DNA of 64,000 nucleotides from Hanleya hanleyi. Taxonomy: Eukaryota; Mollusca; Polyplacophora; Lepidopleurida; Hanleyidae. Location: contig JAVTVY010025085.1 of the NCBI GenBank assembly GCA_036873755.1, positions 1 to 64,000 of the forward strand. Direction: 5' to 3'. The notes beneath the pieces are model-generated. The model worked only from the letters and a program-made list of their open reading frames with translations. It was not told the origin of the DNA and searched no databases. A program made the translations under genes and the position numbers. Positions 1,940-42,352 of the stretch are shown one piece after another (the first letter of the stretch is position 1; each line of letters opens with the position of its first letter).

Positions 1940-2795
1940 GACTCTTCGAACAATGATTTGAGTTTGTGAATTTATGTTAGGGTAGGATGATTGTTCAGGT
2001 TAAGGTGAAGTATTGGAAATTTGTTATCACTGCCAGTGGTTCTATTCCGGATAACGCGAATGAGACTGGTCACGATTCCTCTCAGTATACCAGTGTAATC
2101 GTCAAAGTGAGTGTTTGAACACCATGATAGCAATGTTATCCGGCACGTCTCGTTATTCCAGTGCATTGAACCCAGTAGTTTTAAGAGTACATCCAGCATT
2201 CCCTATATTACCCTCGTGTAATATTGAAGCCACATTAAATACACAAATGTGTGGCTTCTAGCTCTGAACAATAGTCATTGGGGAATAAACATTCCCTGAA
2301 ACTCATGTTAAATATCGTGGTAATTGTATTACAGTGAAAAGCCTAAATTTACATCAGCCACTATCTGCGTCACCCTCTGTGACTGCTTATGTGAACTAAC
2401 AAAGTGACAACACGTAGGCCCATTATAGTCTTATCACTGAATCTTCTCGAAACAGAACGAATTGCTCTTGATTCCTTATCTCAAATTGTCCGAAATAACG
2501 ATGTCCTCCGTCATATTTAGCAAGATTTGATAGAGAAAAGGTAAGCGAAGCCATCAATTTCAGCTTTCTAGACACAGTGGTAAACGAAATTATTTTGTGA
2601 TTGTTGATTCCCAGTCCGGTCTATCGAGTCTGTCGAACAAACTGAACTATGTGAAAAAAGCCCAACCTATTTCGATTTATCCCAGCCAAATTATAATTCT
2701 AAAAAAATGGCTTTGATATCGATATTATAATATTAGGATTTAACTTTGGCAATTCTTGTGTTCATGTATCTTGTCGGACGATTCGACTATTAATA

Positions 2796-3516
2796 CACTG
2801 TTATAAATCACGCCGTAAATTCACAGTTAAAAGTACTGGCAGAAAAGGTGCTAGTACATTCAACTGTAAAATTACGTCGCATCGTATTTTACAACTACCG
2901 CTTTTTAACAGGCTTTTAACTGTAAAATGTTGCACCGTAATTTATAATTACCGTTTATTTACAGGCATTCAACTGTAAATTAGATTGCATGTAATGTACA
3001 ATTACCTTTTTTTAACACCATTCAAACTGGCACCCTTGTCTACAATTATCGGTTCGGCGGCAACGTAGGTCAATGGAAGGCCGAAATGGCCATTGCTCTT
3101 TCGCGTAGATCAGCTCTTCGTGTTTACATAATCACTAAGGAATCTGTGGAATTATTACACGAATAGTGGGACACAACCGCAAGTCAGATAAAACCAAACC
3201 CGAACCGTATTATAGACCGAAAATTAAAGTTAGGCGCTGCGTTCGTCCCAGGCCGTGTTCTGATAATGCTCTGAATGTTGTATCGTACAACGCAGGTGTG
3301 GGATGTTTCCTGCAAATGAGCGTTTCGTGTGCAAAGATATCAACCTCCTTTCAGAAGAAATTGGAATTTTATGTTACGTGTGTGCGACGTTTACCCATTC
3401 CAGTTGATGTCAACTGAAATATCACAGTTCAATGTACAAATTAATGTGTTTACGATCAAATGGACTGTAAACTCCAACATACATTAACTGTGAAATAACG
3501 GTAATTTATAACAGTG
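2796..3516. mobile_element. 721-bp Tc1/mariner-like MITE (TA target duplication)
   Basis: The ends are inverted: CACTGTTATAAAT at 2,796 and its complement ATTTATAACAGTG ending at 3,516. Each is flanked by TA (2,794-2,795; 3,517-3,518). The similarity extends inward (CGTAAATTCACAGTT against AACTGTGAAATAACGG). The left flank contains three subterminal copies of AACTGTAAA at 2,862, 2,918 and 2,971, spaced 53-56 bp. Copies B1 and C run through the equivalent position without this sequence, which supports insertion. No transposase is present and the internal open frame (3,166-3,417) has no recognisable domain. Assignment to Tc1/mariner rests on the TA duplication and the CACTGT start. Confidence 0.8.
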
Positions 3517-4951
3517 TACGTTCATTGATGCAATTTCACTTTAGCTCGTACGTACTTTTAAATTATCTGCTTTTATGAATATGTCCTATTATTACCATAC
3601 ACCTTTAGATTCACTATTCCGACGCCATATACGAAACGAAATATATGTTTGTGTTCTCCAATAACCAAATATTTTCAGATCTCAAAATTGTAGAGGCCGA
3701 TGTGACGGTTGAATCGGCGACAGGCCTCATTTTTCCATACCATGTTGCATGCGTATGGGAAGTCAACCGATTGGCATCGTTATAGGAGACTTTTGCAGCA
3801 AAGGTAGTTCCCAATTTGAACCACCCTTTTTTTAATTATTGGTTAATGTTTAGGAAACATAAATGTATGAAATATATTCAATGCAATGCAATGTCAATAA
3901 TCGAAATACCTGTTTCATACGAAAATTAGCATCAATTCCAAATAGGTATGAAATGACAAATTAAAGAGTTCTGGTGTAAGAGAAACGGTGGTCCCTCAGA
4001 TGTGAGTGTCCGCTTGCTATGATTTAACCCAGCCCAGACACTGACATCTGGAAAGGTTCACGTGGATATCCGCTTTATGTCAAATATAACAGGCTTAATA
4101 CTGGTCAAAGGGAACCACCCTTTATTTCGCATCGGCATAAAGGGAAACGATATCGTGGTGTTCTTACATAAATACCGATCGCTGATTGGCATCCTTTGTC
4201 TAAATTAATTGAGCAGAGAGACAGCTGTTGGGGCTAGGAAAAAAATATTGAGAGCTGAGATAATAATAATTTATTTATTTACGGCTCACTTCCCGAGAAT
4301 GTCGAACTACATTCACATAATCTAAGGCAAGCCCGCGATTTGACAACGGATTTTTGTAGATACGTACTTTAGGATACCATTGATATCAAGCATGGTAATT
4401 TGCCTGAATGAGTTTTGACTGTATGTGAGAGACCAATACAGCGTAGCCAGCTGTGACAAAATACCTGTGGACATTACGAGAGATGTTAATGTAACCATGA
4501 TCACCGATATAATTTTTTCTGTGTAATCGGACAAAACTCTCATTTCAAAAGTTTAATCCAATTTGGAGAATATCCCGGTGTGTAATTACTTCTAAAACCT
4601 CGACATTCTGATACATCGGGTCATTAGGGGATTTCGCGTTGATTATTGTTGATGACAAGCGATATTTCAGCACTAGTTGTTGATTGTTTGATTGACTAAG
4701 CGGAGGGGTTTACTGTTCATTTATACTGGTTTGCATTAATAATCATCGAACGTACTTATGACTTCCCCTGAACTCTCCATTGTGTTACTTCAATTAACGC
4801 TGTGGCGATAGATTCAATCGTGGTGTTGAAACCATGTGGCACTCGAGGAAGAAAGAAAATATCTGTGTCTCCCCGTAGTTCCTCTTCTCACTTCAATGCA
4901 TTCGTATGGCTAAAACTTTGTCCTTGATAAACGTCTGGGGTGCCAGTTTAA

Positions 4952-5245
4952 CCCTATCAGACCGGGATCCTGGATGGGTCATTATTCTGATCACCCTACA
5001 CAATTTCCTGAACTATCTTCGGAACTGCAAAGATTTAGAGCTGACACGCTATCTTTGTAGATTTGCATAGGACCGTGGGTAAATTCAAAATTGCAGCGAT
5101 GTGGGGTACCACAAAAGTGATGTAATCGCCATTTTTCTTTGAACTTCCTGCTGTTTCTGACAGAAAAAGTTCCTGTTAGCCCACATGGTCTCCATCTTAA
5201 ATTTACCTATGATCCTCTACTCGGATGATAAGCTTTCAACTCCGG
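4952..5245. mobile_element. TTAA-flanked (piggyBac-like) MITE, incomplete copy in A
   Basis: It starts CCCTATCAGACCGGG immediately after TTAA (4,948-4,951). The interior shares GGTAAATTCAAAATTGCAGC and TGTGGGGTACC with the copies at 32.5 and 35.9 kb, then has the inverted counterpart CCCACATGGTCTCCATC, so both arms are represented. The right TIR is not seen. The sequence passes back into long-unit sequence near 5,245, and the long-unit segment corresponding to about 10,640-11,660 is missing, so insertion was accompanied or followed by a deletion. Confidence 0.6.
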
Positions 5246-8200
5246 TCATTTTGAAATTTGCATAGCATACCCAAGATAGCTTTAACATAAATGTGACATG
5301 AACGAAAGAAGAAACTTATCTTTTCTTCCTCCGAGTAATCTCTTACATATACGGCATGACATTTTACCATGATGACAAAGGTTTCTGATGACTTTCATCA
5401 TTATCACAACTATTATCCGTTTTCCGCGACAAAGAAGTGGGACATGAAAGGCGAAAAAAAAGTTCATGACAGATTCATGACAGATTTTCACCTTGTAATT
5501 ACAATTTCCCATTAAAGCGAGAAATGTTCTCTAACATTTTCTGCCTCGTTTTTTTAGCAATGCAAAATATTATTCTGACGTGTAAAATGTGGCTTATATG
5601 GATATGAAAGGTTAATTATTTCCTGGTCTTAATACGGATCCTCAATGTACGTGTTACGTAATTTCTGTTGCACCAAGATGGTCATGGCGTGGTGCTTATG
5701 GGTAAATAAGGATAATCTGGAATAAGAGACAGCGTGATGATCAATCTCTGATGTCGAAAAAAGGCTTATTCTAAACCAGTTCGTACATAAAAAAACTAAC
5801 GAAGTTCATGCTTCGTGTACCGTCTTCCTCCTCGGCTAATATTCCATCCCATAACTCTAATTAGTTTCTTGGATTCCAAGCTGACATGTTTGAAACCGCT
5901 ATAATTAAAAGCTGACTACGCTGCGCAGACACTTCCATTTAGTGTTGAAAACTGTTCTGTCGATGCTCAATCAATATGACAGTAGTGTTCTAATTGATAT
6001 TCCCAAAACTCCAAAGTGTAAAGCCTCACTTTTTTAACTAATTCTTACAGTCGAATCTGACGTAAACTTATGAGGAATAAATTGAAGTAGGTCAACAAAT
6101 AGATTATTTCAACACCGGTTACGAGAATAATTTCTCTCGTTAGAGGTGAATCCCACATGAAACAGAGACAGTTCACACTCGCTAACAAATAGGGTTCCTT
6201 GATACGGTTTGGGGAAAATGTTTCTGTGCATTCTTCTATTGTGGCATAGTTACTAGTCTAAAATACTGTGTTTAAAGAAGCACATATTTTCTTGATAGTA
6301 ACTAGTTTCATAATCAGCGAATAAGTATGTTGATTCGGGCTCCTTCATCCGTGCTTTCATCTATGCTATTTCATGGCTAATTGGTGTGCTACTCTGTGAA
6401 CACTTGTTCATTTGGAAGCAAAAGGAGCTGAAAATCAACTGGACAGGAACTATATACATTTGCCAAAATAGCAAATTCACTGTCTTAATGTTTTCAGTAA
6501 TAGTTAACAATTCGTATTGAGAATAATTATCGAAAGAAGCTTGCACTTGATGTCATCTTAGCAAAAAGATATTTAATGCACTCCCGCGGTTCCATTACGA
6601 ACTATCTCATGCGCGGAGTAGTTCTAATCCGTGTAATTAGCCAACGGACATTTCGTACGAATGGAAGATTTATTATCCTTGCGTTAGCATAAAATGGCAT
6701 GTATAATCGAACAGGTCGAACAGAGCAGAAAATTGCGGACCGGCAACATTACCGTCAAAGCCGTGTCTATGTTCTTTTATTTAATGACGGACATTCCAAA
6801 AATTATATTGCAAAAAATGTGCAATTTTACGGAGATTTATACTTTATTCTGGATTTGGCATCCACAGCTCATTCCAATCGATAGAACGTCTGCGTGACAA
6901 CACAGAATATTATAAACTGTTGATACACCGGATTTATTGACATATTAAATAAATAAGCCGTCTACAAGCCGTCACGTCTACGTGAGGCATGTCTTCGCGC
7001 TTCATTTTCGATGCAGTACAGTATGTATAGGTGCATCCTTCCTTCGTGTAAGCACCGCTTGGCAGCTCCGTCTGTCAGCGGAGAAGAGAATAGTGTATAA
7101 AAGAGAAATCTAATGTGAACACAAAATTCAAATGCGCGCATTATAATGGATTTATCTGTATAGTCTAATGTAACAGAAAACTTCACGAGATTCTCTTGTA
7201 GATGTGAGCCGTTCTAAACAAATGCACTTACAAGCAAAATTCCAAGATTGACAACCATGTATATAGTTCAAGAAACATATCGGTTTCGGAACAAACAACC
7301 CTACGAATGTTGTGTGCACACAAATGTTGAACACTGCTCATGGTCTGAAGAACATGGATTTGTAAATATTTAACAGGAGGAGTGAGCCACTGGGGTATCA
7401 AGACAGACGGCCATAGTGAAAGCCTTTGGGGGAGAAGGCTTTTGCAGCACGATGTAGACGATTACTTGTTTTCTGTTGATTCAATTTACTTACACGAACG
7501 TAGGCGGAAAAGTGGGCGACAAACACGAGATGGAAAAGAATATGTACAATTTGATGGTGTGGAGAATAGAGGGAGACTTGTGTTAAAAAACATTTCAGGG
7601 AATAATTCAAATTCGCTTAAAAAATAGTTGATTTTTCCTAATCTTTATTTCGTCCTCTGATACAGCGTTCTGATGTGCCAAATGTCCAAATCAATTAAAC
7701 ATTCATGATTCGTTGACATCTGCTACTGTTCCTGTTCAGCGTCGCCATGAATCATTTTTAAAACACTGCTTTAGTTCTGTACATTCATGTCAACTTTGGT
7801 TGTTTTTCAGCTCAAGGCGAAGTATGTTATCGCTACCAATGGTTGGGTCACAGATGAAGCGAATGAGCCTCTGGTCACGATCTCCTCTCAGTGAATCATT
7901 ATAGTCGCAAAAGTTCTCTACTTAGACATGTTTTATCGAAACATATCACGCCGATGCTAATGGGTGCATCTCGTTCTTTCATTGAATTTATCCCTGTGAT
8001 TGATCGAGTATGTCCAGTATCCGTTGCATTGCTTCCCGTGTAAGACTGAAGCCGCACTGTTAAGTTATAACAAACGTTAAGTTAAACTCTCGCATAATGG
8101 ACACAGATGTCGCTTTTAGCTTCCCTCCCGCTATTATTGTACAACACTGGAAAACATTCATTTATGAAAGCCTTTATCTGCGTCACCTCTCCGTCATTGT

Positions 8201-8840
8201 TTGATCGGGCTGACCATGTCACAGCACGTAAGCCCCTTATAGTTTTGCCTCTCAATCTTCGGAATAGGAAAAAATTGTCTCACCTCAAGTTCCACGCGGT
8301 GCATTGCTTAAAAATGTCTGAAAATAGCGATTCTCTTTTATAATTACCAGGTAATTTTTAGAGAGAATAGAAAAACGAAATTCGATCAAATTAGCTCTCC
8401 AAACCCAAAAGTAACAGAAATGCTCTTGTCTGGTCGAGTTAACCAAGATGATATTCTCTGGAGCAATCTCAGCTATTTGGAAAAATATCACAGGATCCAT
8501 TTTGCTTCAGAGGAAATATAATTCCAAAACAACTGGATCTGATATCGGCCTAATACTATTACCATACCAGGATTCAGCTTGTTTTGCAATTCTTATTTCA
8601 TGTCTCTTTGCAAAATATTCAATCACGAATAAGCTCAATTTAGCTAAATCAATTTGCTAATACGCACTTTAAAACATTCTACTTTCGGGAATAGTTCTGA
8701 GTGTAAGCATACACCTATACCGACAATATGCCAAAGTCATATACCAAAGAGAAGCCATATTTTTGCCAGACTTGTTGTTCTCTAATAGCCAAGTATATTT
8801 CGGCTGTCGCTGCTCGAGGTGTATCCCAATCAACGTTGTT

Positions 8841-9893
8841 GTTAATCTACTGGCAGAAATCGACGGCCTGCATCATTTCTTCATACTATTTTAAAAAGTA
8901 TAGGAAAATAAACATTTTACAGCAAACGTATTTCCATCAAACGTCTTGATAAATTTATAGGCCGGGAAAATAAAAATGTAGCACATGTTTTAATATACAG
9001 GAAATGAATCGTAAAACTTAGAAACCTGAAATAAGCTCTCGAGCATGGAGAAATCTGGAACGGATCCAGAAAAACGTATCTTCGGAGATAATGATAAATA
9101 ATTCATTTATTTATTAGTTCAGTGTTTTTCAAAAGACATTCATATTATCCTCGACAAATTCGCGATTGAGCAAAGAATATTAAATTTTGTTGTTAATCTA
9201 CTGCCAGAAATCGACGGCCTGCATCATTTCTTCATACTACTTTAAAAAGTATAGGAAAATAAACATTTTACAGCAAACGTATTTCCATCAAACGTCTTGA
9301 TAAATTTATAGGCCGGGAAAATAAAAATGTAGCACATGTTTTAATATACAGGAAATGAATCGTAAAACTTAGAAACCTGAAATAAGCTCTCGAGCATGGA
9401 GAAATCTGGAACGGATCCAGAAAAACGTATCTTCGGAGATAATGATAAATAATTCATTTATTTATTAGTTCAGTGTTTTTCAAAAGACATTCATATTATC
9501 CTCGACAAATTCGCGATTGAGCAAAGAATATTAAATTTTGTTGTTAATCTACTGCCAGAAATCGACGGCCTGCATCATTTCTTCATACTACTTTAAAAAG
9601 TATAGGAAAATAAACATTTTACAGCAAACGTATTTCCATCAAACGTCTTGATAAATTTATAGGCCGGGAAAATAAAAATGTAGCACATGTTTTAATATAC
9701 AGGAAATGAATCGTAAAACTTAGAAACCTGAAATAAGCTCTCGAGCATGGAGAAATCTGGAACGGATCCAGAAAAACGTATCTTCGGAGATAATGATAAA
9801 TAATTCATTTATTTATTAGTTCAGTGTTTTTCAAAAGACATTCATATTATCCTCGACAAATTCGCGATTGAGCAAAGAATATTAAATTTTGTA
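8841..9893 (+). repeat. Three tandem copies of a 351-bp segment
   Basis: The anchor GTTAATCTACTG occurs at 8,841, 9,192 and 9,543, exactly 351 bp apart. Copies 2 and 3 appear identical by eye. Copy 1 differs at only a few bases (TGGCAG for TGCCAG, and ATACTATTTT for ATACTACTTT). After copy 3 the sequence continues TTTTGTAGATTGAT, as in the single copy of unit C (20,190). The junction has TTGT/TTGTTGTTAATC microhomology. This is a very recent expansion inside the long unit, or an assembly artefact. Confidence 0.93.
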
Positions 9894-10346: not shown

Positions 10347-10584
10347 AGGGTCCGGTGCATCACGTTGGACACAGCGGTCTCCGTCAGATCACCGAAGTTA
10401 AGCAACGTCGAGCTCGGTCAATACTTGGATGAGTGACGGGTGCTGTACTGGCTGGGTTGATCAGTATCCAGGATAATAGGAAGTGGACACTCTCGTGTTC
10501 TGGCACATATAGGCACCGTCGTGATATGACTGAAAAAATGTCGAAAAAGACGTTAAATCCTACTCCTTCACTCACTCACTCACC
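10347..10584 (+). mobile_element. 5S rRNA-derived SINE, copy in B1
   Basis: Positions about 10,347-10,447 resemble 5S rRNA: CACGTTGGACACAGCGG, CGTCAGATCACCGAAG, an A-box-like AGTTAAGCAACGTCGAGCT at 10,396, the intermediate-element-like ACTTGGATGAGTGAC, then GGGTGCTGTA. About 15 nt corresponding to the 5S C-box region between GTGAC and GGGTGCTG is missing. A SINE body follows (ATCCAGGATAATAGGAAG, GATATGACTGAAAAAATG, GACGTTAAATCC), then an (ACTC)n tail at 10,562-10,583. It is flanked by CCCTTAATGTAGG on the left and CCTTATGATGGTAGG on the right, a probable target duplication. The architecture fits the SINE3 (5S-headed) class. It would be transcribed by Pol III if the promoter still works, which the C-box loss makes doubtful. 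The tail sequence resembles mollusc SINE tails (from memory). Confidence 0.82.
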
Positions 10585-12639
10585 CCTTACATGCCTTATG
10601 ATGGTAGGTTTAATCGATGTGATGGAAGCATGTGGCACTCGAGGCTTAAGAAACAGTTGAGCTTTACCTGTAACTTATTGTACCCTGCTGATTCTTTTTC
10701 ACTTGTTTATTTCCATAATAGCCACAACTTTGCCCTTGGGACCCTCGTCTTATGTGGAAACGATATGCATAACTGCGATTGACTGAATGACTACATTCTT
10801 GTGACGGGGAAATTCCAAATTTTCTAGTTGATATTATAAACATTTAAAACAACATAACGGTTGTGTTTCATGGTTGACTACAGAATCGGCTAGAGCAGAC
10901 GAAATGTCCACATTTATTTCTAACGTAAATTGATTTAGAAACACTGATGTAGCTCCAAACAGACTGGTTGAAAGTTACAGAATAAGCTAACTACTGACAA
11001 AGCCGTTGAATGGACTTCACGGGACATTCCCATTCCGTCCAATTTGAATAAATACACCTCTAAGTAATTTGTAGCAAAACTACTCTGACCTATCAAGTGA
11101 GTCTACTTTCCGAAAAGTCAAACTCTACCAAATTCAAATGACAGATGGTCCAAATTAGAGCTCTGCGAAAAGCAGTAAAGAGGGATTATTACAATGTTTA
11201 CATTTCTGAGTATCTATTTCTGGATAGTGATAATCCAGAAGGTATACATATCGACTATTATTATTTCTTATATCATGTGACTGAAACATGACGATATCAT
11301 TCAATGCCAAAGAATGTGCCTGGTTATTGGTAATTGTTGGATAAAATCTTTCAAGCCAGATCGCTGGCATTCATAATAAATAAAGAGTTGGGATTTATAA
11401 TGGACAAAGACTGTCTACTAAATGTCCAATCTGACACATGTACCTTTCTAGGCATTACTCGATCAAAATTGTACATTGGCCTTAGTGTGACTTCGCTAAC
11501 ACGCATGCTTCGGTTGATGTTAACTGATTTCTACATTCGTTTCTCTCATTCAGATTTTACGTAAGGGAAATGCCCGGATGCGATCACAAGTAAAATTAAT
11601 ACTTATATGATACGCTGACATTAATCCGGAGTTATAGTCAACAGTTTCAGATAGGGTAGGTAATCAAGTCTGGTTATTTGAAGATTTAAATAGCATAACC
11701 TAAGAATGACAGGAGCGAAGGAAGAAACATTTATTTTAACTCCAAGATATCGCTTACATGTACGTCCTGGCCCTTTATCACGATCAGCGAGGTTTCTGGT
11801 GATTTCCGGCTGCACCCCAATTATTATCCTTTTTCCAAGAACAAATGTGGACATCAAGGCGAAAGGGAAGATCGCGACACATTTTCGCTTTTTGAGCACA
11901 GTCTCCCGTCAACTGCTTGCTAATATTGGTTGCTTAGGTTACGTAATAATGCAATATGATCTGAAGTGGTAAAAAATAGTCGATGGCGATATGAAAGGAT
12001 ACTGATTTCCTGAGATTTTACAGATTTTCACTGCATGAGTTATGAGGTTTATGTTGCACTTCTACAACAGATGCTAATGGAAAGGTGCTCATGGATACTC
12101 CAGAAAAAGATAATTTATAGTGATCAATTTGCGATGTCAAAAAACAAGTTGCTTAGCATTCGTGTACATTGGAAATTTCATAGTGTTGTCTGAAACCCTA
12201 ACGGCGGGTTGTTCGAAATGCATTCTTTACGTATTTGTTTGTTTCCTTGTAACAGAGCCGCATGATACAATTTATGGAGACTAATTACTCCCCTAACTCT
12301 AATCAGTTCTTGAGATGGCACGTTTTCATGCTTGGAACATATATAATTAAAAACTGATTACTGTGGTCAGAAATAATTCCCAATCCATGTTCAAACAACT
12401 GGACTTCCTTTTGTCTATCAGTTTGCCAGTCGAGTTGCTGAAACGCCACACGGTAGAGTATCACTTCTTGTAACTAATTTTCACAGATTAAATCTCTGAT
12501 AAACCGTCACTTTGCAAGAAAATTATGGTTAAATTATTTATCAGGAGGTTCGCGTCTTAAATACGGCGTTTAAATAATTATTCAAATTTTTGATAGTAAC
12601 GAGTTTGGCGGTCACCGAATGGAAATGCTGGGTCGAAGG

Positions 12640-15509
12640 GAAAGGAAAAGATCACGACAGGTTTTCACCTTTTCGATTTCTCACGATTTCGAAAGCGAGG
12701 ACTGTTCTATAACATTTGCTGCCTCGGTTTTTTAGCAATGCAAAATATTCTGACGTGTAAAAAAGTGGATTATATGGATATGAAAGGCTAATGATTTCCT
12801 GGTCTTAATACATATCCTCAATGTACGTGTTACGTAATTTCTGTTGCACAAAGATGGTCATGGCGTGGTGCTTATGGGTAAATAAGGATAATCTGGAATA
12901 AGAGACAGCGTGATGATCAATCTCTGATGTCCAAAAGAGGCTTATTCTAAACCAGGTCGTACTAAACAACTAACGAAGTTCATTCTTCGTGTACTGTCTT
13001 CCTCCTGGCTAATATGTCATCCCATAACTCTAATCAGTTTCTTGAATTCCAAGCTAACATGTTTGAAACAGTTCTAATTAAAAGCTGACTACGCTGTATA
13101 GACACTTCCATTTAGTGTTGAAAACCGATCTCTCGATGCTCAATCAATATGACAGTAGTGTTCTAATTGATATTCACAAAACTCCAGAGCTTAAAGTGTC
13201 ACTTTTTAAACTAATTGTCACAGTCGAATCTGACGTAAAATTATGAGGAATAAATTGAAGTATGTCAACGAATATATTATTTCGACACCGGTTACGCGAA
13301 TAATTTCTCTCATTAGAGGTGAATCCCACATGAAACAGAGACTGTTCACACTCACTAACAAATAGCGCTCCTTGATACCGTTTGGGCAAAATGTTTTTGT
13401 CCATTCTTCTATTGTGGCATACAGTACCGACCAGATTAAAGGTTCTAACTAACGCATTAGAGATTAAATTCGAGCACGTTACGATTCACAGCATGCCCGT
13501 TAGTAACCTGCTAACGCGGCCTTAGAATGCGTTAGGAGAGCGTTACAAGCAGGTTAGCTGTGAACAATGAGTGCGTTCGATCGCTAATTTAACTGTCTCG
13601 TGGGCTCTTCGAGCGCGTTACGTTGAACAATAGTTGCGTTAGAAATTTTTAACAACCCCTCACCTCGTCGACAACGCCTATTATATATGAATGCGTATAT
13701 ACGGTATATATGCATTTGGAAATAAACATAACCTTAACAAAATATATATATATATATTAACTTAATAGATTTTAATTCACGGAATGACAATCAACGTTCA
13801 TTTCTGACCGTCGGATGTTGAGGTAATCAACTTATCCTTCCGGTTAGATTTTGTTTAGTGAATTTATTATCTATTTGTACTTGAGGTAATATTGAGTAAC
13901 ATTGAAATACATATGGTCATGTCATTATGTAGGAGTTAAGGCAATTAAAAGTACTTGTTTGAGGCGAAATTGTTGTGACGTATTTTTTTTTAGTTAGAAA
14001 TGGTGATCGCAGAACGAATATAGACAAACCCGACATTATGAGATATCTTGATGTTTCGGATACTACCAGTAATTCTAGTACGGAGGCAATTAGTTTTAGT
14101 GTCGATGCAATCAAATTTATTAGCATGTCATCGCCATTGAAACGAATATATCAAACTAATTAATTATATCATTTCCTATCTTCCGGTTTACGTAGATGTA
14201 TGCCTAATTTGTTTGGCTGGTCATATTCGTCCCGCGAGTGCGTTAGGTCGGACAAAGCGCACGTTAGTGTAACCATCATGTCAATTTCTCCGAGGGCGTT
14301 AGGTTGAACAAAGAGCACGTTACTGACCCCCGCTGTCGCGTCTGGTAGCTGCTCGACCTGCTCATTGTCCGAGCGCGTTACGTAGAATAAAGAGAACGTT
14401 AGCAGACCGTTAGACGTACGTTAGCACTTTTCGAGCGCGTTTCGTTGCGTGTTAAGCCTCCCACTGAGCGCATTAATTTGAAGCGCGTTAGTCCGTTAGA
14501 TGAGCTCGTTAGGCGAACCTTTAATCTGGTCGGTACTATAGTTATCACTCTTTAATATTGTGTTTAAATAAGCACACATTTTCTTAATAGTAACTAGTAA
14601 TCAGCGAACAAGTATGTTGAGTCGGGTTCCTTCATCCGTGCTTTCGAGACAGCTATTTCATGGCTAATTGGTGTGCCACTCTGTGAACGCTTGTTCATTT
14701 GAAAGCACCAGGAACTGAAAATCAACTGGACAGGAACTATATACATTTACCAAAATAGCAAAGTCACTGTCTTAATGTTTCCATTAATAGTGATCAATTC
14801 GTATTGAGAATAATTATCGAAAGAAGCTTGCACTTAATGTCATAGTAGCAAAAATATATTTAATGCTCTCTCGCGATTCCATTACGAGTTCCCTCATGCG
14901 CGGAGTAGTTCTAATCCGTGTAATTAACCAATTGACATATCGTACGAATGGAAGATTTATTATCCTTGCGTTAGCATAAAATAGCATACATGATCAAACA
15001 GGTCGAACAGAGCAGAAAATTGTACAGGTGCAACCTTTTCTTTGTCTAAGCACCGCTTGACAGCTCTTTCTGTAAGCGGAACAGAGAACAGGTTGTAGAA
15101 GAGAAATCCAACTAGCATTCCATTCCACAGTCCATTCAAGATAAAATGACCGGCCGTTCTAGTCTCATCAGATATATTATTTTTCTATTACCTCTATTTC
15201 AATCTTTGGCCGACCATAAGCAATACAAATTCAATACGATTACAGTGATTCGAATGACGTAACAGCATTTATTGTCTAATGCGAACACAAAATTCAAATG
15301 AGGCATTATATCGGGTTTACCTGTATAGTCTGATGTAACAGAAAACTTCACGGGATTCTCTTGTCGATGTGAGTCGTTCTAAGCAAATGCATTTAAAGCG
15401 CAATTATAAGATTACAAGATGTAGTTCAAGAAACGAACCACCCTAAAAATGTTGTGTGTGCACAAATGTTGAGCAATGCTCATGGTTTAAAGAACATGGA
15501 TTTGTAAAC
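12640..15509 (+). repeat. Long unit, copy B2 (3' part only)
   Basis: It is nearly identical in order and sequence to copy A 5,460-7,370, for example AATCTGGAATAAGAGACAGC at 12,891 and 5,711, and CGTACGAATGGAAGATTTAT at 14,941 and 6,654. It starts abruptly after B1 and ends at GGATTTGTAAAC before the Harbinger-like element. It contains the 1,117-bp TA-flanked element (13,422-14,538) and retains about 100 bp at 15,140-15,260 that copy A lacks. Confidence 0.8.
13422..14538. mobile_element. 1,117-bp non-autonomous DNA element, TA-flanked, with GCGTTA subterminal repeats
   Basis: Inverted ends of 24 bp match at 23 positions: CAGTACCGACCAGATTAAAG at 13,422, and the complement CTTTAATCTGGTCGGTACT at 14,519-14,537. 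Both sides are flanked by TA (13,420-13,421; 14,539-14,540). The equivalent site in copy A (6,244-6,256, GTGGCATAGTTAC) has a single TA and no insert, which proves the ends. The 200-300 bp next to each end carries about twenty variants of GCGTTAGG / GCGTTACG in both orientations, while the centre (13,690-14,210) is AT-rich with a (TA)n run near 13,743. The TA duplication and CAGT start suggest a pogo or Tc1/mariner relative. No transposase ORF is present. Confidence 0.87.
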
Positions 15510-15512
15510 TAA

Positions 15513-28300: not shown

Positions 28301-28404
28301 GAAATCGCGATAACAAGAATTGTTTACGGACGGACTGACGGACTGACTGACTGATGGACTGACGGACCACGGACGACGGACCACGGACGAAAAGTGATTT
28401 GAAC

Positions 28405-28430: not shown

Positions 28431-28544
28431 ATTAAGACAATTTTTGGACGAGATTTTATTTACTGATGTGTTTTCTCTGCAAAAACTGCATGATGAATGA
28501 AAAATGTGATTTGAAATAAAATAGCTTTTGTTTAACTAGGAAAC

Positions 28545-28690: not shown

Positions 28691-29910
28691 CCCACTTTTC
28701 TTCGTAGAAACACAGAAATTTTGCAAAAATGACGAAAACATCACTTTTCTCGTATCCCACATGGTCGCCATTTTGGATTTACTCATGATCCTCTGCTCGG
28801 GGGCAATGCAAATCGCCTCAAAATGACCCCAATATAATCAACCACAAGGTCCCATAGTATCAGCTCTCACGTTTTTGTCGTTCCTGAAAGTTTTGTAGGG
28901 TTAAATCATGTGTTGATAGTAACTAGCTGCACTGTCAATGAGCAGTGTAGGTAGGTTGATTTCCTTCTAACCTCTCAACACACCTACCGCCAAAGCCCTG
29001 TCGAAAATAAGAATTCGTTGTCTTAATTCTATCGCTAAAACTGATAAATTCTTATCGGTAATAATTATCCGAAGAAGCGGGCATTTCAACCCACATTACA
29101 GCAAATATGTGAAATTGCTCTGTCGTGATTCCATTACGAACTCCTTCATGTATGGAGTAGACTTAATCCCTATAATTAACCAATTTATATATCTTACGAG
29201 TGGAAGTTTTATATGTTTATTATCCTTGATTACTGGATGTGAGCATAAGGAAGTATATTAGATCAAACAGGTCGAACTGAGCAGGACATGGCGGGCAAGC
29301 AAACCAACCTTCAAAGCACCGTCCATTTTTCTAAGATACCATCACAAGCATTTCCAAAGATCTTACTACAAATATCGCTGCAGTATTTTACGAGGTTTTA
29401 TATTTTATCTACAATTTGACGGCTATAACTCATTACTAGATAGAAATTGATAGAAAATAAATAGTTTCATTAACAAGCGCTTTAAAGGAATTGTCAAGAA
29501 TTATGATGGTTACACTGAAAGCAAATAAACCACTCTCTACTAAAGCTGCTGGTCCGTCACGTATGACTGATTTTTATTGCAGCATCTTGATCTCACAATG
29601 ATTAGCACTGCTCCTATATAAGGCATTATCTGCAAGACAAGACTGGGAGGTATTTTACAGGTCACTTACATAAAAATCAACCCACCCACTCAGCACTGAT
29701 TGTCTTTAAATTGAAAGCATCCATACCCAGGATTTATTGACATACTAAAGAGTTGAATTCTGTTTGAGACAAGTCGTCAATATGGTATTGATGAGTGCCT
29801 TATTTTTGCGCGTGAGCACGGATTTGGCAGTTACCTCTGTGAGTGGAACAGATGATGACCGAGTCTGAAACAGAAATCCAACTAAATTTCCATCCCACCG
29901 TCTCTCCAAG

Positions 29911-32059
29911 ATTTTGTTCGAACATTCTACTCTCACCGGACATATACGTATTTCTGTTAAATCATCCTTCGCTTTGTAATGCTCGTATAATAAATCAAAG
30001 TTTGTTAACATTTCTCCAAAAATAAAGGCTTTCGTTCAACGATATGATACAAGAACATATCGTTGAACATCCATTCGTCCACAAAAGGTTTAATGTACCA
30101 ACTGTTATTACATGCGTTAAATCGTCCTCGTGCATTTTTTTTTCTGAAACAATCATCAAGTCAAGATTTTCTTGTCCCTGTAAACCAACAATGATAAAAT
30201 GATATCTATCCAGACGTTGTAAATGTATTTAATAGGAATGCAATGATATATCGTCCAGTTTGGCAATAATTATTTTAAAAGTAATCTGGTATTCAAGTGA
30301 GAGTAAATCCTACCAATTACAGTTTCTTTAAATGTCCATTTAGGAAACGAAGTTTTCTTGCAACCCTCTATGAGCAACTTTTGTATTCATTCACGTTCAA
30401 TAAAATTAAATTTTTGCAGTAACGGTTGGATTATCAGAATGTCCACTTTTTATATCCGGTATAATTTTAATCATAGTGCAATCGAACCAAATGCAATTTA
30501 TGTGAGGGAAGTCATCTATGACAACAACATGATCAGGACTACATTTTTCTATATCCACAAAGGTCACGTACGTTTGAGATGTCGTGCATAGTACCCAATA
30601 TACAGTAGACATTCTCGAGATTTATTCAGGTTTTCAGAATAAGACGACTGAATCGTCCAAGGAAATCAGCTTCTAAATATGTTCGACTTATAATCACTAG
30701 CAATGTGTCTTATAAGAAAATGTCAGACCGACATCGCTACAATTGCACGCACACAGAATACCACACGGAATGAACGCGATGATGTGGGCATACAATTTTA
30801 CCGATAATTAGTTGAAATTAATCAAAGGCTCAAAAACTGATACGGCTTTCCCCGATTTCCTGTCGCTGATGTTCAACTCTCGAGCCGAATATAACGAAAG
30901 CGTCGTGTATCATGCGATAGTAACAGTTAAGATATCTTTTACTTCCCTGAGCTCAAGATTCCACTCCGAGATTTCGTAATAACGGGCGAATCATAGAACT
31001 ATTTTTGATATCAATAATATTCGGAAGACAACGCAAAACGCTATATATAGGATTCCCGAGGTATGTAAGTTGAGACGGCGTCTGGCCACTAAACAACAGC
31101 CAAATGACTCCACAGGAAAGTCTCGAGTTACCTTTTGTTTTGGGATCGCGCGATATTCATATCTGGTTTATTCTTCTCCAATAATGCATCAGTGGAGAAC
31201 CGTCAATCAACACGAATATCCCAGTGAAGTTCCGAAGCTATCCATTATCATATCCTAGGTCGACCAATGATCAATTTAAGTGGTTTCCTTAAGATGCAAA
31301 CAACCTGAATCTAAATAACAGTATTATGTTAAAGTGTTACCAGAAGAAAAGCTAAATGAAAAATTTTGCTCTCAGGTTTTTCATTGAACAAAAACATTAT
31401 TTTGCTGAGCAAATCATGTGGCAGAATCTTAGAATACCAAACTTGGGACGCAATTTGTTATACTGCATACGCACGGGTATCGCAACTATATTTGTCAAAA
31501 AATGAGAGCAATTGAGGAGAAAATACGCTTTATGTTAAATAGAGAAATTTATCAAAATTGATTGCTACTTTACGATTTTTTTTGTTAAAATTAAAATACA
31601 TTTTACAGAGTAAAGCTCAACGATTTTACAATTCCCTTTACATGCACGCGTAACCAGGGATACAGGGATATTTTTGCAGTTTTCTTCCATAAATTATAGA
31701 TAAATATACTGACTGCATATTTTCAAAATCATCACATGAACAAAACCTAGTCACTGTGATGATTTGTATCCCAGCCACGCTTTTATTGCTGTGTTCATGT
31801 GGACATGTTGAATGGTACAAACACACGACCCCTAGCACCGCCTTAGGCAGTATCAGATACAAATATTAAAAAGTTATGAAGTACTAGCCCTACCAAGTTA
31901 TTGAATTAAAATGATTATCTATGTGACCGATAGATGAAAAAACTACCCAAACGAGGGTGAAAACCTCCAAATTATCTAAAAAATGCTAGCGGATCTCTAT
32001 AAAAAAATGCCCCTGTCGATTTCGATTTGTGTAAGGCGAGTCTTCATGAGTCTGGCGTC
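29911..32059. other. Non-coding stretch with a 13-bp-stem hairpin and a block shared with 40.0 kb
   Basis: There is no gene I recognise. A hairpin lies at 30,034-30,068 (GTTCAACGATATG, 9-nt loop, CATATCGTTGAAC). The block 31,465-31,562 (CGGGTATCGCAACTATATTTG, GAGAGCAATTGAGG, CGCTTTATGTTAAATAGAG) is a diverged copy of 40,043-40,139. Open frames of 60-80 codons (30,358-30,591; 31,070-31,258; 31,638-31,862 minus) match no family. Confidence 0.45.
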
Positions 32060-32400
32060 AAACTATAAACTTTAGCATTTGTATATGTGTTTTCAAATAC
32101 AACCAGACTCAATATGATTTCTTTTGACAGTTTTTGACAGATTCGAAAACATGTTAATGAAAACAGAAATCAAAAATAGTTTGCCACCGTTTGCTACAAT
32201 AATTCCCTCGGCTCGAATCTGTGGCAAAATTATGAAGAATATATTATGTATGTCAAGAGATATTTTATTTCGACATCTTCTATGAGAACGATTTCTCCGT
32301 TTAGACGTAAATCCCATATGAAATAGTGAGGTTCTCTCTCACTTGCACTTAGCATTTTCTGTGCATTCGGCTATCGTGTCACAATTATTAGTCAACTGTG
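32060..32400 (+). repeat. Long-unit fragment F
   Basis: 32,100-32,400 matches the 13,200-13,430 block of B2 and 25,500-25,690 of E: TTTCGACATCTTCTATGAGAACG, GTAAATCCCATATGAAATAG, and GTGCATTCGGCTATCGTG. The TTAA MITE at 32,473 follows about 70 bp later, near the place where E carries its own TTAA MITE. Confidence 0.65.
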
Positions 32401-32472
32401 ATGTTGTGGAGAATTGTAATTGTTATCAATGTTATTGATAAGGCTGTGCGCATCTTAAGTACTTTGTTTTAA

Positions 32473-33029
32473 CCCTACCTGACCTGAGCGGGGCACTTTC
32501 CGCCCCCACCCCCTCTTGGTTTTTTGCTCCTATCTCCGGAACGACAAATAATGAGAGCTGCAACTTCATGATTTTTTAGCTTATCATATTGGGGTGATTT
32601 TGTGCCTATTTGCATGACTCCCTGAGCAGAGGATCCTGGGTAAATTCAAAATAGCGGCCATGGGGGGTACCAGAAAGGTGCTGTTTTCGTCATATTTCTT
32701 CAAAATTTTTGCTTTTCTGTATGGAAAAGTGCATAAAACCTATCTTATTTTATACGAGAATATTATTTACTAATTTATCACATAGCTTTTGCGAATAAAA
32801 CACATCAATAAAAAATCGCCCCAAAAATACCATTTTTGAGAATGACGTCAATGTGACGTCATCATGGTAGCCATCTTAGTTTTTTAAAATTTTCTATTAG
32901 AGCTTGAGACATAGTGTGGTAAGTTTCAGTAATCATTAATAGTCATTAATAGGCAGAGTGAAAAGGGCAGAGGAGGCACTTGCAACCCCCAGGCTGCAGT
33001 GCACCGCAAATCGCCCAGGTCACATAGGT
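32473..33029. mobile_element. TTAA-flanked piggyBac-like MITE, 557 bp, full-length
   Basis: It starts CCCTACCTGACCTGAGCG after TTAA (32,469-32,472) and ends CGCCCAGGTCACATAGGT before TTAA (33,030-33,033). Internal landmarks shared with the 35.9-kb copy are GATTTTTTAGCTTATCATATTGGGG, CAGAGGATCCTGGGTAAATTC, GGGGTACCAGAAA, and paired TGACGTCA-like sites at 32,841-32,864. The terminal similarity and TTAA duplication suggest piggyBac ancestry (Kolobok also uses TTAA). No transposase. Confidence 0.82.
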
Positions 33030-33033
33030 TTAA

Positions 33034-34549
33034 ATTGATTCTGATTTCTATAATTTTTATATACGTGTACGTATGTTGGACGTTCGCCTTTCCCTCTGTT
33101 TGGCCTTTCCGGGGTATCGTAAGCGAGCTGCATATCCGGGAATAGAGATGACGCCTCAGACGTACAGCCTATCGGGTACACGTGTTTGATCCTGTTGTTG
33201 CAATATTACTCAATCGAAAACGTAGTTATTAATAACGAAACGACATTTTAACATTGTAATTTATTATACAATTATGCAAAAAGCACATATGTGTAGGTCT
33301 ATATTAACTTGGATTTAATAAAATATCCTTCAATGTAATTAAAACCTTGGGCGCTAAATGTGTTTTTACAAAATAAAGAGATCAAAATATGTAATTGCTT
33401 ATTACTGCAAATATACGCATTGCGTTAATTATGATCCTAACATGCTGAGACGGGGTTGTAATTTCATAATTATATCAGTCATTGGGATAAACTTGGGTAT
33501 TCGGTACAATGATCTGCAATTATTTTCAGCTACATGACTTTGTATGAAAATATTTTTTTAGAAATCATTACAATTTTGTCTGCTCATAATAAACCAAGAA
33601 CGAACATTAACCTGTATGTTTTTGTCAAGTCAGCGTCACTGTCGTTTGGATTTATTAGTCAGAATTGAAGTCTCTCCAAACTGATAAAACTATCCTTCTA
33701 TCCCTTATGTAAACAACCATGCTCTGAGCTTCACACAGACACATTCCTACAATTTGTTGGGAATTTATCCTACAGTATAGAGACCAGGGTAGGATGCAGC
33801 TCAATGGACAATATTATATTATACTTCTCGAAGTGGAAAAGAGTGAAAAAGAGCGTCACCTGTAACTGTACTACAGCTGGAATATGATCGGCAATATACA
33901 TCTTTGTGCTAGATGGTCAACTAGGAAGGTTCCGAAATAGATGTAAATTCGAATGTATGTTACAGCCTCAGATTCTCTGATAAATCAATATACTAATGGG
34001 GTTGAGACAATATAGGTAAGGGACTACGATTCTGTTCTTTATTTTGTATAACATGTTAATTAATATCGTTTCAAAAAAGAACATATCCGTACAAACAGGA
34101 TTATCCAGTTTAGTACACGATTTATATCGAAACATGTGTTATCTGTATGCTACTTACATATAACACATTATCACAGAAAATCAGGAAACGGTGAGAAAAT
34201 CTCTTATGTGGGGACTTGCTGTATGGCTGATTACACAATCCTCCCACATAAGTTGCACTTTGAACAGAAAGGAAATTAAGCACCGGTTACTGGCATACTT
34301 GAAACTGGGTAGAAACATTTACATGGCTGAAACAAGGGCTGTGACAGATTACAGGCAGCTTCAGGCAGGTTTCAGTAGCAGAGAAACTCTACTTTTCGCC
34401 CAGAGACGCTCATGCTCTTTAGAACATATGGGTTAGGAAGATTAGTGGAACCTTTCAAAAGATTGTTTCAACTAGCATGCAGTTGTAGTATTGAACGAGT
34501 AGAGAACTGAACCATTTACAAAATAATCCGACGGAAGATTATCAACCTG
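33034..34549. other. AT-rich spacer, no recognised feature
   Basis: I see nothing I can name. One frame of 81 codons (34,191-34,436, plus strand, hydrophobic N-terminus) lacks homologues I recognise and has no visible splice context. Confidence 0.35.
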
Positions 34550-35296
34550 TAAATATTCGGTGAGCCATGATTGTACTTGAATAGACTGCGATAGTAGAAG
34601 CCTTTGAGGAAAAGACCTATGTGACATGAAGTAGACGATTACCCGTTATCTGGCGATTCAAATTACTCACACGAACGTATGTGGCAATTACATTGATGAA
34701 AAAGTGGAAGGCAAACACGAGATGGAGAAGCAATCAATAACTATATATTAGTATACATGTATGTACAGTTTCATACCTTAGAGAACAGAGAGATTTATAA
34801 CACATAACTCAACGTCGTCTTCCAAACAGTTATCTTTACCAATCGTTTGTTTCGTTCTCCTAGAGCGTATTATGTTCCAGGTGTCCAGATCAATTGAAGA
34901 TTTATGATTTCTTGGAACTCGCTACTGTTAGATTACTGATTTACTGTTACATTTTTAAAATATTGCTTGAAGTTTGTGCATGTTTCTTAGGATTGGTTGC
35001 CTTACAGCTCAAGGCGAGGTATATTATCTCTACCAGATGACACCAGATGACGCGAATAAGCCTCTTGTCGCGGTTTCTCTCAGTATATCAGTTTGATCGC
35101 GACTGCAAACGTGATTTATTGAAACCCATCACACCAATGCTAATCGGAGCCCCTCTTTCTTCCAGTGATTGATCCCATTAGTTGTTCGTGTACGTCCAGC
35201 ATTCCCTCTGTCGTTGTATGTTCAGACGGAGCATGCGACAACACGTAAGCCCCTCATATTCTTCCCACTCAATCCTCGGAATGGGACACATTGCTT

Positions 35297-35600
35297 TAAA
35301 GCAGTTCGCAGATCGACTGATTCAAAGCAGGGTTTTAAAAATGATTCATGAAATCCCAAAATCGATTGAGAATGATAATTATTTTGTAAGCGAGTTTGAG
35401 TTATTCCCTGAAGTGTTTTCAACGCAAACATCTCTCCATTCTCCACAGCATCAAATTTTACATATACTAGTATTTAGGCACTGATTGCTTCTCTACCTTG
35501 TGGTTGTCTTCCACATATCCGTTCTTTCCATTTGACTCACCAGACAACAGGTAATCGCTTACATTCAAGCCACAGAGCTCTTTCTCGCCCTTAGACTTCC
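35297..35600 (-). repeat. Inverted copy of the long-unit head block inside D
   Basis: 35,297-35,357 is almost exactly the reverse complement of 36,411-36,472 (for example GCAGTTCGCAGATCGACTGA against TCAGTCGATCTGCGAACTGC). Further right, the complement of 35,400-35,560 reads through CTGTGGAGAATGGAGAG and GTAAGCGATTACCTGTTGTCTGG, which is the B1 7,460-7,610 block. About 300 bp of unit head is therefore flipped relative to its neighbours. Confidence 0.82.
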
Positions 35601-35856
35601 GTTACCGAAACCTATCCTGACTCCTGGAATATTTACAGGCTATCTAATCATTCGGGTGGGAAATTACGTTAATGCGTCAGAACCGTAATCGTTTAGTACT
35701 AATATAACATGTTGGGTTACCCAAGCTTTAGCGAAGTTGTATGTGACGTTCCAAATCCATATGTCACAATGATCTTGAGCAGAGTTTCTTTCCGATTCAG
35801 TTGTGTTTCATGACAAATGGTCCTCAGACAGATAACTTTGCACCAAACTGTTTCAA

Positions 35857-36396
35857 CCCTATCTGGCCTGGGGGGGGGGGGGCATTATGGCCCCCCTAAC
35901 AAACTTTCTGCGCTACCTCCGGAACGACGAAAAATAGAGTGCTGAAACTTCGGGACTTTATAGTTTATCATATTGGGGTCATTTTGAGCCCATTTGCATA
36001 ACCCCCTGGGCAGAGGATCATGGGTAAATTCAAGATGGCGGCCACGTGGGGTACCAGAAAAGTGATGTTTTTTGTCACATTTCTTCAAAATTTCTGCTTT
36101 TTCGCGATGAAAAGTGAGCAACAAATATTTTATTTCACATCACATTAATATTTACTAATGTATCATGCAGTTTTTGCGGAGAAGTACGACCGAAAAATGT
36201 CGTTTTTGAAAATGACGTCATCAAAGCGGCCATCTTGGATTTTTTTACATTTTCTGGTAGAACTTGACCCAAGGGTATAGTGTGGTGAGTTTCAGCCCCC
36301 TAGCTCAAGGGATAAGAAAAAAAATTAAGGGGGGAGGGCTATTTCGCCCCCTCCCCCGGGCCTGGACAGGTCCCAAAAAGCCCAGGCCAGATAGGG
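35857..36396. mobile_element. TTAA-type piggyBac-like MITE, 540 bp, best-preserved TIRs
   Basis: The inverted ends are CCCTATCTGGCCTGGG at 35,857 and its complement CCCAGGCCAGATAGGG ending at 36,396. The right flank is TTAA (36,397-36,400); the left is TCAA (35,853-35,856), one mutation away. The interior has a poly-G/poly-C pair next to each TIR, AAGATGGCGGCCACGTGGGG at 36,032, and AATGACGTCATC at 36,210. It lies exactly at the right edge of the inverted block in copy D. Confidence 0.88.
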
Positions 36397-38984
36397 TTAA
36401 GCTATGTTTCGGGATTTCATGAATAATTTTTAAAACCCTGCTTTGAATCAGTCGATCTGCGAACTGCTTCAAGCTATGTTTGGATGCTTTTCAGCTCAAG
36501 GTGAGACCTATCTGTACCAGTGGTTGAATCCCAGATGGCAAGAATGAACCTATGGTCACAATCTCCTCTCAGTCTATCTGATTAATCGCGAATGTTCTCC
36601 CTTTAAATATAATTTATTGAAACCCATCACACTCGATGCTAATTGAAGCACCTCGTTCTTCCAGTAAATTGATCCCAGTAGTCGTTCGAGGCCTGCATTC
36701 CCTTATAGTCTTGCCTCTCAATCATCGGAATAGGAAAAGTGTTTCCTGGTAAGGTCTCGTCCAATTTAGCGCATTCTCTTGCCTCCAAATGTCCCAAAAA
36801 TAATTCACACCGAATTATTAGCTCCTACGCAGTGTCAAACTCTCTGCTTTGGGAGGAATAGGTCTTAGTTTAAGCATACAACTAATCCGACAATACCCTA
36901 ACGTCATATACTAGACAGAAGATATATTTTGGTCAAACTTGAGGTTTTCCAATACCCATGTATCTTCTGTCTGCTCAAGGTGTATCCCAGCAATGTTGTG
37001 TCAGTGTACTGACAGGAATTCGAAGACATGTCTCGTGCCTCCATATTAAATATGTATAGGAAGCCATTCAACTGGCATCGATATCTAAGGTACCTTAGTG
37101 CGGAATTATTTCCAACAAACGTCTTACTAAATTTGTAAGCGGGGATCTGTAAAACTCGAATGCATCAAATTTATTAATATATGGAAACAAAATATTCTTC
37201 CCGGAAAATTGGCATAAGCTCTCGAGGATGGAAAAAACTGCATGTGACCAAACAAATAAATCTAACGGCGGAGATATTTATGTATTTATCAATTCATCTG
37301 CTTTTTCAAATAAATTCAGATTTTCCTCGACAAATGCGCGATTTAGCAACGAAAATTTAATTGTGTAGATTGAAAATAAGGGAAACCAGATCGCAAAGAT
37401 GCACTAATGAGTTCTGGATGTACACAGAAGATTCATATAGCCAAATCAGACGTCAAAATATCCTTTTTTGAAAATGCAGATATCCAATGATCACCAACCG
37501 GTCAAAAGCTTCTTTCAAACTATTGGAGCCTCTTCAGTTGTGCAACTACTTGACATTCTACTTGACTTTCTAATGACTCGAAATATTATTCCGATATTCA
37601 CGGCACAACAATTTGTACCTACTTTATTTAAACGGATTTTTTTTATGACAATCGAAACCCCAATACAAACTCTAGGTTTGATTGTTTGATGTAATGCGTT
37701 ATATTCATAAAACATTGAGTAGTTAGATGGTGTTGGAACTATATGGCAATCGAGGCTGAATGAAGAGTAGAGCTGTTCAGGTATTACTAACCTTTTAACA
37801 TTGCAGCTTCTTCGCTCACCTGATTCCTTTCGTAGGAGCTACATTTTTGCCTTTACAACCACATTCACCAGTGGTCTTCTGACGTATACAATATACCTTC
37901 CAACGATTAGCTGATGGGTTACATTCTTGTGGCGGTATGGTAAAACTTCTGATCTAAGGCAACGCAACATCCGTGGGAGAATTCAATATTTAAAACAATA
38001 TAATAGCTGTGTTTCAATACGCTGCGTGTATATGAAAGATTGAAAAATCGGCTATAGGAGGCAGAATTTCAAGATTCGTTTTGAGAGTGAATTGTTTTAG
38101 AAACAAAGACACGCTATGAGGATATATGTAGATATCTACTATTTGTTAGATCATGCGAAAACACGCGGCGATCTCAATCACTGTGAACACATGTGTTCGG
38201 GTTTAGCATTAGTTCTAATAGTTGGATACCCGCTTTCAAGCAAAGTCGTTGGCGTGCATAGTGGACAAAAACTGACTAATTATTGTCCAATCTAACGCTT
38301 GTACCTGTCTAGGTAATACTCGACCAAAATTGTACATTGGCCGCCAGTGACTTCATTAACGCACCTTCTTAGGTTGGTGTTAACTGATTTTCTACATTCG
38401 ACTCTGCCACTCTCAATTTATGTAATTGATATCGGGAAATGCGATATTTGAATCTATCCATGACTACAATAATCACATGATAATCTACTGTTAATCCTGA
38501 CTTATAGCCAACAGTTTCCGATAGGGTAAGCATTCAACTAAAGTCATTTGGAGATCTACATAGCATACCCTAAGAGGGACAGGAACGAAAGAAGGAACAT
38601 TTATTTCTTCCTTCAAGCTATAGCTTAAATGTCCGTCATGGCCTTTTACCATGCTGGGAGAGTTTTCTAGTGATTTCCGGCTCCACTCCAATTATCATCC
38701 GTTTTCCAAGAAAACAATTTACATGAAAAGCGAAAGGGAAGATCACGACAGATTTCCGCTTTTTTATCATAGTTTCCCGTCAAGACCAGAATTGTTCGAT
38801 AGCATTTGGTGCCTCGGTTACGTAAAACTGTAAAATAATCTGAAGTGGTAAAAAGTAGCCGATGAGGATTTGACAGGATAATTAGTTCCTGGTCTTAGCA
38901 CGGATTCACACTGCGTGATTCATGGAGTTTGTGCACCTTCACTACAGATCACACCAGATCATGGCGGGGTTCTCATGGGTACGT

Positions 38985-39123
38985 GAGTTAGGGGTTAACG
39001 TCGCGTTCAGCGCTGTTTCAGCCATATAGCGACGATATAACGTTATGATTAGCTGGACACGTGTGACTATCCATGTACTGTCATCATGAAGAGTAAATTA
39101 ATCTTCCCCTCGTTGCTCAACAA
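38985..39123 (-). mobile_element. SINE 3'-end remnant in copy D
   Basis: On the minus strand this reads CGTCGCTATATGGCTGAAAC, then GCGACGTTAACCCCTAACTC. It parallels the 5S SINE tail (GATATGACTGAAAAA...GACGTTAAATCC...ACTC). Copies B1 and E lack this insert at the equivalent point. The head portion has no recognisable tRNA or 5S sequence, so the promoter type is unknown. Confidence 0.5.
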
Positions 39124-39720
39124 AGGATAGACCAGTTAAGGTGATAGTGTGGAGATCAAACCGTCATGTCGATAAACCTCTTATCATTCGTGTACATTCA
39201 GAAGTTCATACAAACGTTGTTCTTTCCTTTCGAAATAAGTGCTCCACATATTCTTTTCCTCGTGGTACAGCAGAACGATATATGTGATGCGACTATATCC
39301 TGATCTAAGTTCCTCATATGCCAAGAATATTCACTTCAGAAATGATTACAAATTAGTGGGAAAAAAACTGGTCTCGCGGTGGTCTAACATTACCACAGTG
39401 TAGTGTTCTAATTTATATTACCAAACTCCAAACCGCAAGCTGTCACTGTTTTTATGAGTAATTCTTACATTTCGAATCTGTGGTAGACTTATGAGAAATA
39501 CATTGAATGTTTGCCATCGAATATGTTAATTCGACGCCATTTACGAGAATAGAGTTGTAATAATATACCCTTCAGACGTAAATCTTATAGGATACAGTGA
39601 ATGTCCATACGCAATAATAAATATAGTCCCACGATATAACGTTTGCCTTAATATATCCAGTTTTATGCAATCGTTGTATAATGAATGTCATTTCGGTACA
39701 ACTGTTATTTCGCGGAGAAA

Positions 39721-42350: not shown

Positions 42351-42352
42351 AG

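Follow-up and report, generated by a model that had tools for sequence, protein, structure and literature searches.

A decayed head-to-tail array on a Hanleya hanleyi contig, very probably the relic of serial local duplication of gene-free DNA

The window, that is the whole 64,000-nucleotide stretch analysed here, corresponds to bases 1-64000 of a 100,872-bp contig (JAVTVY010025085.1) of Hanleya hanleyi, in an assembly (GCA_036873755.1) that was searched over its 2.48 Gb. Direct repeats span 1.9-39.8 kb of the window in a self-comparison. The repeated unit, of ~5.8 kb (copies A and B1 are offset by 5813 bp, 1941 vs 7754, by blastn), is laid out as a head, a mid block, a tail and a spacer of ~1.1 kb, and its copies keep a constant block order and a direct orientation, with the one exception of an inverted piece within copy D. 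Four block profiles (head, mid, tail and spacer) were used, which the copies that served for building them match by construction. The copies are the following:

1941-6258, plus strand: old copy A, with head, mid and tail (blastn; profiles, A being among the sequences that build them)
6246-7363, plus strand: spacer between A and B1 (spacer profile)
7364 to ~12635, plus strand: copy B1, its 5' edge being a deletion scar
8836-9892, plus strand: 351-bp piece triplicated within B1, its copies >99% alike (blastn, TRF)
~12636-13421, plus strand: B2, a second copy of A's tail (blastn, 88% to 5419-6248; profiles; junction alignments)
14538-15508, plus strand: second copy of the A/B1 spacer (blastn, in pieces of 87%, 62% and 81%)
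17420-22870, plus strand: copy C, ~88% to B1
22865-23193, plus strand: spacer copy 3' of C (blastn; spacer profile)
23808-25806, plus strand: old copy E, the end of the mid block and the entire tail (blastn; tail profile)
28902-30100, plus strand: spacer copy after E (blastn; spacer profile)
32164-32424, plus strand: fragment F, the end of a tail (blastn, 66% to A, E 5e-17; tail profile)
34443-39769, plus strand: old copy D (blastn; profiles)
35311-35738, inverted: head piece within D (profiles)
36405-36798: repeated head piece within D

The head-to-tail repeats are confirmed as real. Self-blastn of the window gives 117 off-diagonal matches at E<=1e-4, a list from which those lying wholly within a 157-bp minisatellite are left out, while ten Markov-shuffled windows give no match each under identical settings and the reversed window gives one. 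The reversed window likewise has no match to the four block profiles at E<=0.01, and three at E<=10. The partial copies A, B1, B2, C, E and D, proposed in a preliminary description of this DNA to share one block order, are all recovered by this comparison, which adds fragment F. An old 65% match between 31351-31581 and 39929-40157 lies outside the unit blocks, upstream of F and downstream of D respectively; it is possibly a part of the unit that the other copies have lost.

The spacer profile also matches 61151-61552 (E 4e-23), 76640-77040 and 99052-99463. The match at 61.2 kb was considered as an extra copy of the array and rejected, as it is located inside a ~0.8-kb repeat (60866-61684) that recurs on many contigs with identical start and end points (40 of 2430 candidates scored). 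We infer that these three matches do not extend the array, and that the A/B1 spacer probably holds an old relative of this dispersed repeat.

Two pairs had been described as close, B1 with C and the 3' part of A with B2, and this is borne out by differences of 0.054-0.176 by block in the first and at 0.076 of sites in the second. The tail of A and B2, the A spacer and the B2 spacer, and B1 and C are moreover collinear, with an identical succession in both halves; therefore, ~5.46-12.6 kb was duplicated as a whole. This block of ~7.2 kb (~6.5 kb when the additional 351-bp copies are discounted, since C has no counterpart of the B1 triplet by blastn and TRF) took in the tail of A, the spacer and B1, and yielded B2 and C. 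The duplication junction lies at ~12603-12640, where the profile ends overlap and the junction alignments place it, and it couples the start of the spacer to the middle of the tail, so that it does not keep to the register of the older units. The preliminary view of a locus repeatedly duplicated over time is thus correct as regards the old copies; the two close pairs, however, belong to a single duplicated block.

As a single block was duplicated, the A/B1 and B2/C joints go back to a single one that was copied along with it. The head and tail that they share were correctly observed, but this sharing does not independently show where the unit ends. Between the end of the spacer and the motif GTGAGCC, C contains ~75-100 bp that are absent from B1 and that have a matching stretch in D. 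The apparent head at the 5' edge of B1 is thus the scar of a ~75-100 bp deletion. In C, the sequence runs on past the presumed ends of the unit. The continuity is weaker in D, where the spacer end before the matching stretch is given by a short alignment match alone, the spacer profile finding none. The transposon at 15512-17419, whose inverted ends measure 16 bp, is also located at this point in C.

This bears on the possibility, raised in the preliminary description, of an unclassified large transposable element with several side-by-side insertions. It could account for several diverged copies of a kilobase unit and for a retroelement-like relic within the unit, but what had been taken for its head is the scar of a deletion and what had been taken for its tail the site of an insertion, and its copies are direct, collinear and joined by a copied spacer. 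Genome searches with the parts of the array, which left out 20641-20999, copies A and B1 and the tail of E, weigh further against it. The head of C is found at four places including the query, all on the contig of the array (4 of 4 candidates scored), and its mid-tail part at ten, of which six, including the query, are on this contig (8 of 8 candidates scored) and the remaining four are matches of 55-66 bp on four other contigs. Searched against the assembly, the head and mid-tail of C are thus confined to one contig save for a 55-66 bp relic, and dispersed copies sharing uniform ends are not found. Neither is a transposase, reverse transcriptase or similar protein recognised by Pfam at its cut-off among the 31 ORFs listed individually, the ~120-bp retroelement-like relic being all that is seen. 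Taken together, these results make a large element very improbable. They support instead local amplification of a non-coding locus, which had been listed as another option: copies are direct, collinear and adjacent, bar the one inverted piece in D, and the head and mid-tail of C are restricted to one locus.

The other queries do reach other contigs, through short sub-segments. The spacer after E is found at 39 places, of which three are on the contig of the array and 35 elsewhere, all of these in query 577-812; one further short match elsewhere, in query 95-162, is the only dispersed match over the part of the spacer query that resembles 60866-61684. Two queries are swamped by repeats and do not establish that their own sequence is confined: 19110-20640, for the first half of the mid block, has 41 of its 45 places on other contigs, all in query 1-885 (40 of 2591 candidates scored), and the tail of D has 36 of its 44, all in 741-897 (40 of 2408 candidates scored). 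Genome searches show that such dispersed repeats sit within single copies, and the insertions and relics recognised in the array are the following:

10351-10453, plus strand: 5S-rRNA-like stretch in B1 (Rfam 5S), with a twin in C at 20662-20764
11121-11243, plus strand: relic in B1 whose peptide resembles fragments found on other contigs, with a twin in C at 21434-21556
13419-14537, no strand: DNA transposon insertion with 23-bp perfect terminal inverted repeats (inverted repeat and flanks; dispersed genome copies)
15512-17419, no strand: DNA transposon insertion separating the spacer from copy C, its terminal inverted repeats 16 bp long
19110-19982, no strand: dispersed ~870-bp element, present in C and absent from B1 (blastn alignment)
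26422-28318, no strand: 157-bp minisatellite of ~12 copies, located after the tail of E and before the spacer that follows (TRF)
~29481-29716: dispersed repeat in the spacer after E (genome search)
35855-36398: element within D with 18-bp inverted ends, AACCCTATCTGGCCTGGG
~38983-39116: dispersed ~135-bp element in D (genome search)

The empty site of the 13419-14537 element is present in A, near 6246, and the left part of the 15512-17419 element is also found on two other contigs. The element at 35855-36398, which we assume might be a piggyBac-type MITE, has relatives at ~32465-33067, 25809-26058 and 53946-54290. The 157-bp minisatellite carries an internal inverted repeat; its pattern, that of an inverted-end element and that of the 5S-like stretch each give no match in viral contigs. 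The two 5S-like stretches score 37.5 and 32.3 bits, below the Rfam gathering score of 38, and in the blastn alignments with A and with D the stretch falls between pieces, as expected of a 5S-derived SINE inserted before the ~7.2 kb duplication, which is how it may be read. We take the family names, non-autonomous DNA transposon and 5S-derived SINE, to be the appropriate ones; these families explain the insertions in single copies, not the unit itself.

The relic at 11121-11243 is of another kind. Its encoded peptide resembles those encoded on other contigs and at 93.7 kb on the contig of the array (tblastn against the contig, E 3.7e-5 to 4.8e-4), and at the DNA level it accounts for the 55-66 bp matches on the four other contigs. 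The ~120-bp peptide-coding stretch presumably resembles the end of a retroelement protein, although a protein search with the retroelement-like fragment found no homologue and Pfam gave nothing relevant on a related piece.

The divergence between copies indicates that the duplicated block has had a more complex history than a single event. B1 and C differ at 0.093 and 0.095 of sites in two parts of the head, 0.054 in the mid block and 0.176 in the tail; within the duplicated pair, the start of the spacer differs at 0.174 (69 sites) and its other pieces at 0.117 and 0.134. Since the parts of the duplicated pair are so unequally diverged (0.054-0.176), one duplication alone is an insufficient explanation. 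The B1/C difference changes sharply at 11738, from 5.4% on the left to 17.7% on the right, with a changepoint likelihood ratio of 95.6 compared to a maximum of 14.8 in 300 permutations. Conversion of the B1 or C tail by D, E or A was considered and is ruled out by even match counts: at the tail sites where B1 and C differ, the two are matched about equally by D (62/56), E (60/55) and A (55/58). From these alignments, the plainest reading would be one duplication followed by gene conversion renewing the mid block; neighbouring copies have probably exchanged sequence, leaving the step at 11738, and a second exchange between copies is possible.

The other pairs are old. Identity among the old copies is ~60-70%, and K2P distances in the tail block are 0.38-0.61 for the old pairs among A, B1, C, B2, D and E, and 0.45-0.97 to the short fragment F, which covers only the end of this seven-row alignment. 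In tail-block trees, B1 pairs with C, and A with B2 (support of 100 for both), F joins A/B2 (97), and D joins E, with a support of 83 that becomes 90 when F is included. The transition/transversion ratio is 0.7-1.0 and the CpG observed/expected ratio 0.94.

These ages have to be set against the macrosatellite option of the preliminary description, in which a kilobase-unit array would vary in copy number and be homogenised by unequal exchange. The length of the unit, within one to several kb, its tandem, head-to-tail order and the conversion-like step at 11738 fit with it, as does a ~15.5 kb repeat farther along the contig, 98% alike over the parts searched. Homogenised copies are a criterion of macrosatellites, and many near-identical copies are not what is seen here: the ~six partial copies are interrupted by other DNA, and the old ones have a K2P of at least 0.38. 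The macrosatellites D4Z4 (3.3 kb) and DXZ4 (3 kb), as described in PMC8122249, resemble the array by their kilobase, head-to-tail units, whereas its copies are few, strongly diverged and interrupted. The macrosatellite option thus stands for unit length and order but not for copy number and likeness, and we consider it improbable.

We then turn to function. The preliminary description had seen no recognisable gene or transposase, and a Pfam scan of the 100 longest ORFs of the array (minisatellite left out) and of 66 outside it agrees with this, as none of the 31 of these 166 ORFs that are listed individually reaches the cut-off. The best E among the 166, 0.00067, is that of a SprT-like match among the 66 non-array ORFs, and the ORF at 55145-55432 (minus strand) has an E of 0.00099 with 19.4 bits, vs a cut-off of 27. 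Tandem gene clusters can leave landscapes of this type, and a decayed protein-coding cluster, with its exons past recognition, might be suggested by the ORFs of at least 90 aa, 44 in the window vs 21-39 in ten shuffles. The longest ORF, however, has 130 aa, compared to 118-197 aa in the same number of shuffles, and codon-like conservation between the copies is not found: in 43 gap-free segments of at least 90 columns, mismatches show no codon periodicity beyond chance, with a chi-square maximum of 4.75 when ~7.5 is expected for the maximum. Together with the Pfam result, this makes a gene cluster an unlikely origin.

A functional non-coding locus in several copies, such as a lncRNA, a piRNA cluster or a regulatory array, could be favoured by the uneven decay between C and D, which differ less in the first part of the tail (0.256) than in its second part (0.391), the head (0.306) or the mid block (0.337). 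This unevenness could reflect constraint or an old exchange. Among 132 windows, no conserved RNA fold is conspicuous; in the list of the 12 most extreme ones, the z-scores come mostly from near-zero energies, and the largest energy is -14.8 vs -7.4 (z = -2.9). Rfam has no match at gathering score in the window and, at E<=1 in 1-40000, nothing beyond the two 5S-like stretches; ARAGORN finds no tRNA in the window. Such a function is accordingly given little credence.

Repeats also occur farther along the contig. A second, separate tandem array, in part far younger, starts at 54485, goes through 64000 and continues to 83.9 kb, with an offset of ~15.5 kb: 54485-57112 is 71% identical to 70303-72782, 57681-58648 is 86% identical to 72751-73682, and 58642-68351 is 94% identical to 74140-83913, counting gaps. 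In genome searches, 58650-60860 and 60700-62260 are 98% identical to their copies. The former is found at 105 places, six of them on the contig of the array and 99 elsewhere, all of the latter in query 601-1074, which corresponds to a dispersed repeat of ~450 bp (40 of 865 candidates scored). The 98% pair is either a real young duplication or a false one, resulting from two assembled haplotypes. TRF also finds small tandem repeats, with units of 143 and 223 bp, at 42349-43445. A CTCF-core-like motif occurs at 42349 and 42445, with one mismatch each (0.10 expected; two or more in one of 100 shuffles); we take the matched motif to be the CTCF core. Downstream of the window, a GIY-YIG-like ORF (L009 7420-7776, minus strand; E 0.0014, 19.3 bits, cut-off 22.6) and a QRICH1-like ORF (L012 2408-2779, plus strand; E 0.0012, 19.4 bits, cut-off 30.8) are perhaps genes of mobile elements.

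All in all, we consider it highly probable that the array is the relic of serial local tandem, or segmental, duplication of gene-free DNA. Old transposon relics would have been part of the gene-free unit before it was locally duplicated; the duplications could be due to template switching, or to exchange in a shifted register, within non-coding DNA; neighbouring copies would subsequently swap sequence through gene conversion, and the copies, free of strong constraint, would decay. Most likely, the array as such does nothing, and the mechanism to be considered is the duplication process. Its likeness to known local tandem duplication with decay lies in the direct adjacent copies at one locus, the out-of-register breakpoint, the exchange between neighbours and the later transposon insertions; the difference is that no gene is found in its copies. 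The array is an ordinary, known kind of feature, neither a transposon nor a classic macrosatellite. A decayed local duplication can nevertheless pass for a new element when the raw sequence alone is read, and the two can be told apart by asking whether the copies all lie at one place and whether similarity extends past the presumed ends.

A more tentative reading, possible rather than probable, sees in the contig a duplication hot spot of long standing, where neighbouring non-coding stretches within 100 kb have been tandemly duplicated repeatedly, with exchange between them. The identities might then form an age series, from the first array (~60-70%) through B1/C (~88%) to the ~15.5 kb repeat that extends past the end of the window (98%), an ordering that is just as tentative. 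If this were true, one locus would document tandem duplications from their beginning to their end in DNA without a visible gene, and the contig would be a natural series in which duplication, conversion and decay could be measured in gene-free DNA.
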